NCBI GenBank assembly: GCA_016931995.1
Contig: JAFGDS010000120.1
Location: 1 to 64,000, forward strand
Direction of reading: 5' to 3'
Length of the DNA: 64,000 bases
Source of the DNA: Pirellulales bacterium
GTDB taxonomy: Bacteria > Planctomycetota > Planctomycetia > Pirellulales > Thermoguttaceae
This document shows, piece after piece, positions 15,463 to 62,098 of this stretch. Position 1 is the first letter of the stretch, and each line of letters starts with the position of its first letter. The notes beneath the pieces are model-generated. The model was not told the DNA's origin. It saw only the letters and a list, made by a program, of their open reading frames with translations, and did not search any database. A program made the translations under genes and the position numbers.

Positions 15463-15503
15463 CGCGGCGGGCGGCGCGCCTTGAAGCAATGCAAAGTGTG
15501 GCT

Positions 15504-15590
15504 GGAGGGGGACAGTCCCATTTTCGCGGCGATTCAGCCATTCCAACGAACCGAGTCCTCTGCGCCGCGAAAATCGGGACAGTCCCCTCC
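15504..15590. repeat. long hairpin repeat (ggggacagtccc family)
   Basis: Arms at 15504-15530 and 15563-15590 are nearly perfect inverted copies (ggaggggac-gtccc-attttcgcggcg) around a ~32-base loop. Related copies occur at 30749-30803, inside a coding sequence, and at 59125-59180. It sits between convergent genes, so it could also act as a transcription barrier. Confidence 0.8.
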
Positions 15591-22459: not shown

Positions 22460-22828
22460 GACGTGGGGCGGTCGGTGGCACGGTCTCCGGCGCGCCGATT
22501 GAGTGCCACTGGCTCTGCCAGTGCGTGAGTCGCGGCATCTTCGACACTGGCAAAGCCAGTGGCACACGCGCGAGGGGCGGGGGGGCGGCACGGTCTGAGC
22601 GTGGAGAAGGCCGTGGTTGCCGACTACGGGGATTCGCCACGCCCTTTGCTACGCTCAGAGCGTGCCACCCATCAAGATGGCATGATTCCACCTACAAGAT
22701 GGTCCAAAGCGGCGCCAGTCGCTTGCATGACGCCCGGCGACGACGACAATAGAGGGTTGCGGGGGGAATCCCCTGCCCGTCCGACCCGCCGTCTTCCTTC
22801 CCCAACGATCAACCCGAGAGGACCCGCC
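22460..22828. repeat. repeat-filled intergenic region
   Basis: About 370 bases after the operon. A composite hairpin pair lies at 22503-22524 (gtgccactggctctgccagt) and 22545-22565 (cactggcaaagccagtggca); each arm is itself palindromic and they are inverted relative to each other. The next ~200 bases hold repeat-like sequence (gtggttgccgactacgggga region) without coding character. The region ends before the ATG at 22829. Confidence 0.75.
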
Positions 22829-24199: not shown

Positions 24200-24205
24200 T
24201 GCACG

Positions 24206-24300
24206 TGTGCCACTGGCTTTGCCAGGGTGTGGGCGCCAATGGCTTTGCCAGTGCCCTGTGATACCCGGTTGCGCGCACTGGCAGAGCCGGTGGCGCGCAA
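24206..24300. repeat. palindromic repeats (ccactggctttgccag family)
   Basis: Three degenerate copies: 24208-24226, 24236-24253 and 24277-24296, the last inverted. They fill the 122-base gap between two convergent genes and may act as hairpin terminators. Confidence 0.75.
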
Positions 24301-29700: not shown

Positions 29701-29774
29701 GTGGGTGTAGCTCAGTTGGTTAGAGCACTGGATTGTGGATCCAGAAGTCGAGGGTTCGAGTCCCTTCACCCACC
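29701..29774 (+). tRNA. tRNA-His (anticodon GTG)
   Basis: A complete cloverleaf. Acceptor gtgggtg pairs with cacccac; the D arm is agctcagttggttagagc; the anticodon stem ctgga/tccag encloses ttgtgga, giving GTG for histidine; and the T arm contains ggttcgagtccc. The base before the gene (29700) is G and the discriminator (29774) is C, the G-1:C73 pair that is the hallmark of tRNA-His. CCA is not encoded. The sequence downstream is T-rich (ctttccttttctt) and may terminate transcription. Confidence 0.97.
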
Positions 29775-29813
29775 CCTTTCCTTTTCTTGGCCTGCCGGGG
29801 TCCGATCTCGCCA

Positions 29814-29842
29814 CGTCATCCCGAGCGAAGCGAAGGATCTCG
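29814..29842. repeat. gtcatcccgagcgaagcgaagg repeat
   Basis: One arm of a dispersed repeat whose full inverted-repeat form lies at 52002-52070; a degenerate arm lies just before proB at 59591-59622. Confidence 0.7.
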
Positions 29843-29894
29843 TCGGCCCGGAGCTAGTCGGATCGCATTGCTGGGCACATGGGGCGCCGGCACG

Positions 29895-30206
29895 ATGAGC
29901 ACAGCCAGAAACGGGCCGGTGCTCGTGGCCCTTGTCGCGTGTGCGATCGTGGGCCTCGTGGGTGGCGTGTCGTGTCCCGCGCAAATTGTTCCCGTGCTGT
30001 GCATCGTGGGCATCGGTCTGGGCTTGGTTGCCGTCGCCATGGCAGTCAGGCATCATTTGTCCCAAACCTGCCAGGGTTGCGATGGCGAGGATGCCGAGTC
30101 CCATGGTGGGCGAAGATCTCTCGGGACGGGGCAACCCAATTCATTGCACGAAGAAAAAACGCACGCCGACAACCTGGATGGCAAGGGTGACGCGGGAGGT
30201 GGCTAA
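29895..30206 (+). CDS. possible small membrane protein
   Basis: A 103-residue reading frame with two hydrophobic segments (about residues 8-26 and 30-50) followed by a CQGC pair and a polar, Gly/Asp/His-rich tail. No strong ribosome binding site precedes the ATG, and an open frame also exists on the other strand. It could be a small membrane protein or chance; I lean slightly against it being a conserved gene. Confidence 0.3.
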   Translation: MSTARNGPVLVALVACAIVGLVGGVSCPAQIVPVLCIVGIGLGLVAVAMAVRHHLSQTCQGCDGEDAESHGGRRSLGTGQPNSLHEEKTHADNLDGKGDAGGG

Positions 30207-30305: not shown

Positions 30306-31058
30306 ATGTCTAACGTCCCGTCCCCACGCCGACTCCGTTTCTCCCTCGGCGAGATCGGCGCGGTCGCGTTCACGGCGGTCTACATGGCGGTTTGGCTGGC
30401 CGTCTCGTTCTTGCTGAAGAACGACGAGTTCGTCTTTTACTTCGTCGTCATGTGCCTGCTGATCGTCGCCGTGGGAGCGGTGCATCTGCGGGTGCGGCTG
30501 CACGTGGGGGCGCTGTGGGGATTGTCGATCTGGGGATTGGCGCATATGGCCGGAGGGCTGATGCCCGTGCCGGCGGCCTGGCCCATCAAGGGCGACGCGC
30601 ACGTGCTGTACAACTGGTGGATCGTGCCGGGCGCGCTCAAGTACGACCAGTTGATCCACGCCTACGGGTTCGGCCTGGTCACGTGGATCTGCTGGCAGTC
30701 GCTCCGCGCCGTCCTGGCCCGCCGGGCCGGGGACGGGCTCGGTCGCGTTGGGGACCGTCCCGGTATTCGTGTGGACGAAAACGGGGCTGTCCCCCTCGAC
30801 GCGTCATCGCGCGACGTGCCCAAACCCACGCTCGGCCTGATGACCTTGTGCGTCGCCGCCGGGATGGGCTTTGGCGCGGCCAACGAAGTGGTCGAGTTCA
30901 TCGCCACGCTCGCCCTGCCCGGCACGAACGTCGGCGGCTACGAAAACACCGGCTGGGACCTTGTGGCAAATCTCGTCGGATGCGTGGCGGCGGCGACGAT
31001 CATTGCCATCCGGCATTCGTCCGCGCCGGCTTCCGGTGGGAGCGGGCGGCGGCCCTAG
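30306..31058 (+). CDS. DUF2238-like membrane protein carrying an internal repeat
   Basis: A 250-residue inner-membrane protein with about six or seven hydrophobic helices. The DUF2238 (YjdF)-like signature is visible in WWIVPGALKYDQLIHAYGFG and the late GFGAANEVVEFIA. Function is unknown. Residues ~148-166 (GRVGDRPGIRVDENGAVPL) are encoded by a copy of the genome's ggggac-gtcccc hairpin repeat (30749-30803), which lies in a predicted loop between helices and keeps the frame open. A TACAAT box at 30247-30252 may be the -10 element. The gene ends just before a bidirectional terminator. Confidence 0.82.
   Translation: MSNVPSPRRLRFSLGEIGAVAFTAVYMAVWLAVSFLLKNDEFVFYFVVMCLLIVAVGAVHLRVRLHVGALWGLSIWGLAHMAGGLMPVPAAWPIKGDAHVLYNWWIVPGALKYDQLIHAYGFGLVTWICWQSLRAVLARRAGDGLGRVGDRPGIRVDENGAVPLDASSRDVPKPTLGLMTLCVAAGMGFGAANEVVEFIATLALPGTNVGGYENTGWDLVANLVGCVAAATIIAIRHSSAPASGGSGRRP
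30749..30803. repeat. hairpin repeat inside a coding sequence
   Basis: The sequence ggggaccgtcccggtattcg ... acgaaaacggggctgtccccctcgacg matches the family seen at 15504-15590 and 59125-59180, with the shared features gtccc, cgaaaa and gtcccc-tcgacg. It is in frame within the DUF2238-like gene. Confidence 0.7.
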
Positions 31059-37196: not shown

Positions 37197-37519
37197 CGCG
37201 GCGGGCACTGCTGGACAAGCCAGCAGTGGCGCCCGTTCCGGCTCGGCAAGAGCCTCACCCTCCTGGACGACACCGCCGGCACGCCCAAACCCACCCCATT
37301 CGGGAATTCCGTGGGCCCGATCGGCGTCATATAATAAGAAGATGCCATCTCCTCGTCCCCTCTCCCTCCGGAGAAGGGTTGGAGTGAGGGCTTCCAGGCG
37401 TTGGGTGGCACGCCCTGAGGCACGAAGGGCGTGGCAAGTTGGCAATCACGCCCTTCGTGCCTCAGGGCGTGCCACCCCGTGTGCGATGGAGAGCGTGCCA
37501 CCAACTCGGTCAACTTACC
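37197..37519. repeat. repeat-filled intergenic region with perfect 31-bp inverted repeat
   Basis: A hairpin with 9-base arms lies at 37206-37228 (cactgctgg/ccagcagtg). A cccctctccctccgg-type repeat lies at 37356-37392. A perfect 31-base inverted repeat (37403-37433 and 37447-37477) with a 13-base spacer contains acgcccttcgtgcctcaggg; a decayed piece of it lies after nuoN near 55466. A TATAAT at 37330-37335 may be a -10 box for the next gene. Confidence 0.85.
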
Positions 37520-52001: not shown

Positions 52002-52070
52002 GTCATCCTGAGCGAAGTGAAGGATCTCTCGTCGAGCGTTGTGCGGATTCTTCGCTTCGCTCAGAATGAC
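52002..52070. repeat. gtcatcctgagcgaag inverted repeat between nuoL and nuoM
   Basis: Arms at 52002-52027 (gtcatcctgagcgaagtgaa...) and 52046-52070 (...ttcgcttcgctcagaatgac) are imperfect inverted copies; a further aatgacga piece follows. The 160-base gap has no gene. Related single arms lie at 29814 and 59591. Confidence 0.8.
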
Positions 52071-52128
52071 GAGGACGTTCGGAATGACGAGAAGGTGACG
52101 CCTGATAACTCGATCGAGTCCTTATGTC

Positions 52129-58834: not shown

Positions 58835-59630
58835 GGGTATCCTGCGACCCGGACGTGGAAGTCGCCGTGACGGGTTCGACAGAGGCTATCCGGATGGGCA
58901 AAAAACGAAAGCCTGTCCCGGGAGGTCCGCGTCTTGGTCCCCTCTCCCTCCGGGAGAGGGTCAGGGTGAGGGCGTTTCGGTCGGACCGATTGCATCGTCT
59001 GGGCGACGTGGATTCAGCTTCCCCAACAACCACCATTGTATCCGGTTTGTGCGATTTCTCAACCGACCGCCCCCCACCGCCCTTTTGGCCAAATCTGGCC
59101 GACGATATGCTGAGAGCCGTCAGGGTAGTTCCCTGTTTTCGTATCCGCGAAAATCGGACTGTCCCCTTCGACGCCTCACCGGGGCAGTCGCCGGCATACC
59201 ACGTGTGGGGAAGTTGTGGCACAAGAGAAGGCGGGTAGGGGGGGTGAGTCAACAACGTGATCGCTGCCCACCAACATCATGGTTGATCCGAGTAAAGAAA
59301 GCGCGCAGGGGCTCTGCCCCCGCACCCCCGGGATTTTTCGAGGCATGGCTCCGGTGTCCAATGGCATTTGCAGCGGGAAGGCGATCGCTCGTTTCTTGGG
59401 GCGCACTGGCAGAGCCAGTGGCACACGGCAGGTCGTGTCGTGCCCACACCCATTGGACACCGGAGCCATGCCTTAAAAAATCCTGCGGCGAAGCCGCATC
59501 GGCATCATGCCTTGTGGTGGCGAATCCTCGAGTCGGATGAGCCAACGTCATCACACGACAAGAAATAAAGTTGTCTCTCAGCGAAAAGAGTCATCCTGAA
59601 CCCAGCGAGGGATCGCTGGAAGATCCACTC
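58835..59630. repeat. 800-base repeat-filled divergent region
   Basis: No gene is supported. Contents in order: a cccctctccctccgggagag repeat at ~58939-58975; a ggggac-gtccc-family hairpin at ~59125-59180 (cgaaaatcggactgtcccc); a nested palindrome at 59341-59473 with perfect 24-base arms (aggcatggctccggtgtcca...) enclosing a second palindrome (cactggcagagccagtg, 59404-59420); and a decayed gtcatcctga arm at 59591-59622 that reaches to within nine bases of the proB ATG. Promoters for purF and proB must also be here but are not evident. Confidence 0.8.
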
Positions 59631-60770: not shown

Positions 60771-60807
60771 CGGGGGGCGTCGTGCGGATGTGACCTTATC
60801 CAGCGCG

Positions 60808-60905
60808 TGCCACTGGCTCTGCCAGTGCCAAAAACGCGTGCCACTGGCTCTGCCAGTGCTCCATGCCAGGAGCGCATCCCCACCGGCCGAGCCAGTGGCA
60901 CGCGC
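60808..60905. repeat. three ccactggctctgccag palindromes
   Basis: Two direct copies (60809-60828, 60839-60860) and an inverted part (~60884-60903) fill most of the proB-lpxK gap. Confidence 0.8.
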
Positions 60906-62009: not shown

Positions 62010-62098
62010 AGCGACTCCTGTCGCCGCCCCGATGTGTGCCACGGGCTCCGCCCGTGCGTTGGCCAGCACATTCGAGCCCACGGGCACGCCCGTGGCAC
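62010..62098. repeat. gactcctgtcgcc and gccacgggctccgcccgtg repeats
   Basis: A single gcgactcctgtcgcc arm (62010-62025) is followed by paired palindromes at 62036-62057 and 62076-62098 (gtgccacgggctccgcccgt / cccacgggcacgcccgtggc). The rest of the gap to 62301 shows no gene. Confidence 0.8.

Follow-up and report, generated by a model that had tools for sequence, protein, structure and literature searches.

A dispersed palindromic repeat carried in frame by protein-coding genes of a probable planctomycete genome

The open reading frame at 30306-31058 on the forward strand of the window, the 64,000-nucleotide stretch of DNA analysed here, comprises 250 codons plus stop and shows coding signal on both sides of a repeat throughout which the frame stays open. 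Its product is predicted to be mostly helical and is probably a membrane protein of unknown family. The DUF2238-like label that a first-pass annotation had given the gene is unsupported, as Pfam yields a single row at E≤1, for DUF1440 (E 0.19, under the cut-off), and NCBIfam gives no match at E≤1e-5. Homologues occur in 2 of 40 related genomes (3 of 40 in the tally that counts the home genome) and at 74 loci in genome_contigs, with labels that are mostly Verrucomicrobiota or Planctomycetota; from these neighbours the home genome is taken to be probably planctomycete. The repeat is a 53-nt short-form palindromic element with tag at 30750-30802 on the forward strand, recognized by the covariance model R1 (67.5 bits, E 1.4e-13), by its blastn relatives and by its hairpin, and it codes for about 18 residues, GDRPGIRVDENGAVPLDA. 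DNA folding places the outer hairpin arms, GGGGAC and GTCCCC, at 30750-30755 and 30789-30794 on the same strand. The score and the open frame bear out the earlier description of a dispersed hairpin repeat lying in frame inside a coding sequence; the ggggac-gtccc hairpin named there is real, although the full unit is a palindrome of about 45-53 nt with a one-sided tag. Directly upstream, at 30729-30749 on the forward strand, lies a probable degenerate extra half-unit, GGGGACGGGCTCGGTCGCGTT, recognized visually by comparison with the half-units that accompany other copies. Rfam gives no match up to E 1 over 30600-30950. Two further family members lie elsewhere in the window, a long variant of 88 nt at 15500-15587 on the reverse strand (62.1 bits) and a degenerate short copy at 59123-59174 on the forward strand (36.3 bits). 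Both are outside genes by the codon model, in agreement with the earlier naming of 15504 and 59125 as copies between genes.

Protein alignment with homologues from several phyla indicates that the segment is additional to the family. The extra segment, residues ~142-171 of the product, is missing from all 73 distinct homologues that span the site, a set that leaves out L142, L144 and L145 (site not spanned) and L071 and L072 (which repeat L069 and L070). These homologues are shorter at the site by 21-33 residues (median 27; exactly 27 in 46 of the 73), that of the Planctomycetaceae MAG with the highest listed identity (L073) by 28 and that of genome G005 by 24. The expected indel at the repeat is therefore seen at the protein level, and the outcome that had been named as refuting, conservation of the same residues in homologues, did not occur among the 73. 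An AlphaFold2 model built with 42 homologues (mean pLDDT 86.7) gives residues 141-170 a pLDDT of 56-58 between helices 113-144 and 176-203, so that in the model the extra residues form a low-confidence loop between two confident helices. Because the spanning homologues are shorter and the model places the extra residues in a loop, the segment reads as a loop insertion, with a length that is approximate. The first-pass annotation had put about 19 residues without a stop in a loop; the loop and the lack of a stop stand, while the protein segment amounts to about 27 residues, since the probable degenerate half-unit, which falls within the segment missing from homologues, and a short linker accompany the element.

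The palindrome is a dispersed, imperfect one with both intergenic and intragenic members. A blastn search with 63 bases finds 40 places at E≤10 in the home genome (G000, 5.43 Mb, 153 contigs) and 17 at E≤5.4e-4, that is, the window copy and 16 others, and a 20-nt pattern of the arm, one mismatch allowed, gives 64 matches against none for the reversed-pattern control. R1, built from 26 short copies with the window copy among them, returns 142 rows at E≤1 in the same genome; these are not a copy count, because the palindrome often scores on both strands, and the copy number it yields is a lower bound, because only 150 of 3762 candidates were scored. Rescanning of 89 fetched surrounding stretches together with the window gives at least 111 sites that do not overlap. 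Of these, 99 are short, at most 56 nt, and 12 are longer, measuring about 60 or 80-92 nt; the longer ones mostly keep the same arms around a different loop. The unit has the form GGGGACnGTCCC..TTTTCG..CGAAAA..GGGACnGTCCCC with a partly conserved tag at one side and a stem of about 17-20 positions with mismatches; the short-form consensus is GGGGACTGTCCCGATTTTCGCGnCAGCGAAAAnGGGACTGTCCCCTTCGACGC and its reverse strand reads GCGTCGAAGGGGACAG... Among the 99 short copies, the GCGTC tag is conserved at 42-68% per base, the A two bases ahead of GGGG is kept in 95, and 28 have a further half-unit of about 24 nt beyond them, at a 1% level set by random stretches of the genome. Beside the copies at L219, L229 and L211 the 5′ edge of the element is repeated in short tandem, for example GGCGATGAAGGGGACAG twice in L219, which suggests slippage.

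Copies inside genes are common. Gene context was called by a purpose-made codon model trained on the fetched stretches (third-position GC 87%), which scored as much as 210 bases to either side of a copy, excluding the repeat and 25 adjoining bases, and whose threshold for gene calls was fixed after the scores were known. By this measure 34 of the 99 short copies, in 31 ORFs of which three carry two copies each, lie between coding flanks that agree in strand and frame, with no stop intervening. The search for further in-frame copies suggested by the first-pass annotation thus adds many to the window copy, and its proposal that insertion into genes is tolerated finds support well beyond the window gene. 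Of the other short copies, 4 are frame-shifted, 1 meets a stop, 11 have coding flanks on opposite strands, 45 lack a clear coding signal in a flank and 4 have no open frame. The contrast of 34 in frame with 5 shifted or stopped (p 4.9e-12 against one third) leaves aside 60 of the 111 sites, 55 for a non-coding flank and 5 for want of an open frame, as well as the 12 sites whose flanks code on opposite strands. The excess would be automatic, and selection unneeded, if each insertion were 3n long. Of 3000 sites drawn at random from these stretches, 46.5% class as in frame and 2.1% as shifted or stopped, so that short copies, with 34% in frame, are only mildly depleted from genes.

The hosts include conserved enzymes. 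In a Pfam scan of the 30 ORFs besides the window gene, supplemented with NCBIfam, DNA polymerase I (PolA) exceeds the cut-offs of two equivalog models and carries its insert between the 5′-3′ and 3′-5′ exonuclease domains. Dihydrolipoyl dehydrogenase (Lpd), NuoL with two copies and a SelD-AhpD domain fusion also lie above an NCBIfam cut-off, and a DinG/YoaA-type helicase and a KBL/BioF-like PLP enzyme lie under theirs. Further hosts are an E1-transketolase-lipoyl fusion, a squalene-hopene cyclase-like protein, an Eco57I/N6 methylase, a glycosyltransferase, an SNF2 helicase, an FtsX/MacB protein with two copies, and others; several host ORFs have no Pfam match at E≤1e-5. Five of the 31 ORFs, window gene included, were compared with homologues, and in each the protein-level evidence for insertion consists of shorter homologues. 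For Lpd, all 28 spanning homologues (L381 dropped) are without the approximately 19 residues. For PolA, all 25 (L444, L445, L448 and L451 dropped) are without the insert, at a site that is a linker of variable length. The KBL-like insert is absent from all 12 aligned homologues, the best 12 of 29 loci fetched from relatives (L453-L464), most of which have short segments of their own at the site; against PDB chain 8s1y, query residues 223-263 stand opposite chain residues 256-257. In DinG, where loop length at the site is variable, 28 of 29 homologues are without the insert, and against PDB 6fwr 35 residues of the DinG-type helicase stand opposite none. The exception, from genome G004, carries a copy of its own that agrees in site, orientation and phase, and the DinG insertion is either older than the split of the two genera, or happened twice independently, or was copied across.

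Taken together, these data make it highly probable that the segment arose by insertion of a small non-autonomous mobile palindrome, MITE- or REP-like, that was retained in frame and is translated. Copies would have spread through the genome, presumably via transposition, and those landing with a total length divisible by three, in a stop-free phase and in a length-tolerant loop or interdomain linker would leave the gene open. Such retained copies would be translated as roughly 18-40 extra residues, and copies that break genes would be lost. From the sequences we infer both the translation of the inserts and the action of selection as the filter. The earlier suggestion that the element is a source of new peptide segments would accordingly hold for the addition of residues by this presumed translation, while no gain of function is shown.

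An improbable alternative is that the copies are selected regulatory hairpins, acting through RNA or DNA topology, that arose or were kept for function and are not mobile passengers. The window copy does form a strong hairpin in RNA as well as DNA folds (with DNA parameters -15.5 kcal/mol, z -4.5, none of 200 shuffles as good), and the DinG-site copy common to two genera is compatible with long retention. Against a regulatory role, the copies are spread over unrelated genes, with 17 in-frame copies in sense and 17 in antisense orientation, and genome G002 has seven nearly identical copies in different surroundings, with flanks conserved for about 25 bases. We give still less credence to the reading of the segment as ordinary lineage-specific sequence in a variable loop whose DNA resembles the repeat by chance. 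It draws on the DinG, PolA and KBL-like sites, which are variable loops or linkers where some homologues have long unrelated linkers; chance is countered by a DNA identity of about 80% to intergenic copies over about 50 nt, in either orientation and several phases, and ordinary protein sequence by the fact that the same element DNA gives unrelated peptides in different hosts. Bypass or removal of the inserts at the RNA or translation level is scarcely credible, as it would account for tolerance within conserved enzymes yet would make frame and stops irrelevant, when 34 of 39 same-strand copies hold the frame without stops and phase use among copies is uneven.

The insertion reading, with translation of retained copies, can be followed further in this uneven use of phases. 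The counts depart from what stop codons allow (sense 9, 6 and 2; antisense 2, 0 and 15; chi-square p 1.8e-4). Just 4 of the 34 copies use one of the three phases whose consensus peptide has a net charge of +3 to +5, and 30 use the other three (p 2e-5, for a grouping chosen after the data were known), a rarity of basic peptides suggesting translation and selection. Alternatively, a target preference tied to codon phase could produce the bias. The proposition that the element is unusually stop-free is only partly borne out. In the 65 short copies that do not belong to the in-frame set, 5.1 of 6 frames are open on average; shuffles give 3.5, palindromic shuffles 3.9 and random 53-mers of the genome 4.8, and all six frames are open in 26 of the 65 (40%) against 27% of the random 53-mers.

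Related genomes carry the family in 24 of 60 cases at E≤1e-3 and give a mixed picture for the in-frame excess. With codon models trained on just 12-49 genes each, 8 of 24 short copies in relatives are in frame (1 of 12 in G002, 2 of 5 in G004, 4 of 6 in G041, 1 of 1 in G013) and one is frame-shifted. None of the 12 longer copies of the home genome is in frame (Fisher p 0.017), but a rule that long variants avoid genes is contradicted by G013, where 3 of 9 long copies are in frame and 3 shifted; in G048, 0 of 11 are in frame. At L387-L392 of G002 the short palindrome lies within a larger near-identical repeat whose flanks, AGCGGCCGTCCAGCAACAA and TTGTTCTTGGACGGCCGCT, are themselves inverted, which points to a larger, perhaps recently active element in that genome.

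As to how the palindrome moves, the best mobiliser candidate, put forward tentatively, is the Y1 (HUH) transposase encoded at G000:C119:48531, which belongs to the RAYT/TIRYT class and is one of seven matches to Y1_Tnp in the home genome. Its gene (locus L062, ORF 1468-2163, with NHWH) is flanked by CGAAAACGGGACAG units, has upstream a tandem array of AACGAAAACGGGACAGG-like units and is enclosed by 44-nt inverted repeats that are 82% complementary. The element's arm motif, CGAAAA-(1-2 nt)-GGGACAG, would link array and palindrome; it occurs three times at this gene but just once in 598,804 bases distant from copies, and it is absent from the other 36 Y1 loci scanned, so that one in 37 has it. 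The complete element is not found near any of the seven Y1 matches of the home genome, nor as a terminal repeat at any of the 37 Y1 loci, which include 30 of 80 rows from relatives. Of these loci, only L292 in G002 holds a complete element, about 1.3 kb from the Y1 match.

Other repeats were observed at Y1 loci and in the window. At L307 (G052, same order), several AAAGGGGACAGGCGCATATA repeats (273-292, 1023-1042 and 1070-1089) that have the GGGGACAG end in common with the palindrome occur at a Y1 locus, with the Y1 match at 1501 if positioned as in other loci. A second dispersed palindrome, TGCCACTGGCTCTGCCAGTGC, lies in the window at 22500-22524, 24204-24254, 60804-60859 and 62033-62057, with inverted copies near 22545, 24276, 59404 and 60881. 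Since copies of it also lie on both sides of another Y1 gene of the home genome (L061 1249-1321 and 2121-2146; Y1 match 1501-1842), the genome probably harbours several palindrome families with Y1 transposases. An inverted pair of 29-nt sequences of type CATCCCGAGCGAAGCGAAGGATC (29811-29839 and 52046-52074, 86% complementary) is possibly a third dispersed family, and one member reads HPERSEGS in the open frame 29733-30206. A perfect inverted repeat of 31 nt around a 13-nt spacer, GGGTGGCACGCCCTGAGGCACGAAGGGCGTG, at 37403-37477 appears by eye unrelated to the element.

The kind of event is already known, as Rickettsia palindromic elements (RPEs) and GTAG/CGTC-tagged REPs inside genes have been described, whereas this particular family appears undescribed in the literature searched. 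According to the excerpts of PMC2229807 and PMC3767692 available, RPEs are 100-150 bp long, a survey that is cited counts 19 reading frames with an in-frame RPE, an RPE-bearing gmk product is translated and active, RPEs and Wolbachia palindromic elements (WPEs) add residues in exposed places, and several families use more than one position. Like RPEs and WPEs in those accounts, the present palindromes are intergenic as well as in frame in unrelated conserved genes. Compared by description, they differ from the larger RPEs of small host-bound genomes in being about 45-53 nt long, GC-rich and located in a 5.4-Mb genome of another phylum. The REPs of Di Nocera et al. 2013 (PMC3733652), in the parts available, are mostly intergenic but some lie within ORFs, among them the gene for DNA polymerase I and further repair genes, and the CGTC class has no flanking transposase. 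The present element resembles them as a short tagged palindrome that is sometimes intragenic, again including DNA polymerase I. It departs from the CGTC shape, given in the same excerpts as a stem of 8-9 bp and a loop of 4-5 nt, by its longer stem, and the CGTC tag is represented by a GCGTC that is in the consensus but only partly conserved. The sequence GGGGWSAS is the motif reported for TIR-flanked Y1 (TIRYT) transposases in parts of PMC3733652 and PMC6006769, and the element ends, GGGGACAG on the reverse strand of the consensus, match it; unlike the TIR repeats, the complete element does not form terminal repeats at the Y1 loci. The parts of PMC3733652 on these repeats report in-gene copies for REPs and mention none for TIR repeats. 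The excerpt of PMC2996958 presents palindromic amphipathic repeat coding sequences as intragenic repeats in tandem, found in mollicutes among others; they are likewise palindromic DNA translated within proteins, whereas the element here is a dispersed single insert. Among the open-licence papers matched by the letters of the palindrome none has a bacterial-repeat title, and among the matches listed from that literature none describes such elements in planctomycetes. The family can be classed with the protein-coding palindromic repeats of the RPE-like kind, with possible kinship to TIRYT-type repeats.

Rickettsia provides the best-known coding palindromes, which are readily explained there by the decay of small host-bound genomes. 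Here the same phenomenon is found at scale in a 5.4-Mb, probably planctomycete genome, in PolA, a DinG-type helicase, Lpd and NuoL. A further-reaching and rather doubtful reading is that of a peptide-donating, Y1-mobilised palindrome built of half-units of about 24 nt with nearly stop-free phases, for which landing in frame is normal and whose retained loops in housekeeping enzymes are sorted by charge. On this reading, the share of short copies in genes (34%) would come close to that of random sites (46.5%) because landing in frame is normal, and housekeeping enzymes of a probably free-living planctomycete lineage would keep lineage-specific loops, with selection sorting them by phase charge. 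For annotation, repeat-derived segments of this sort may pass for protein features. As the family recurs among the related genomes, the rate at which mobile DNA contributes protein segments, the selection on phase and the identity of the mobiliser become testable.
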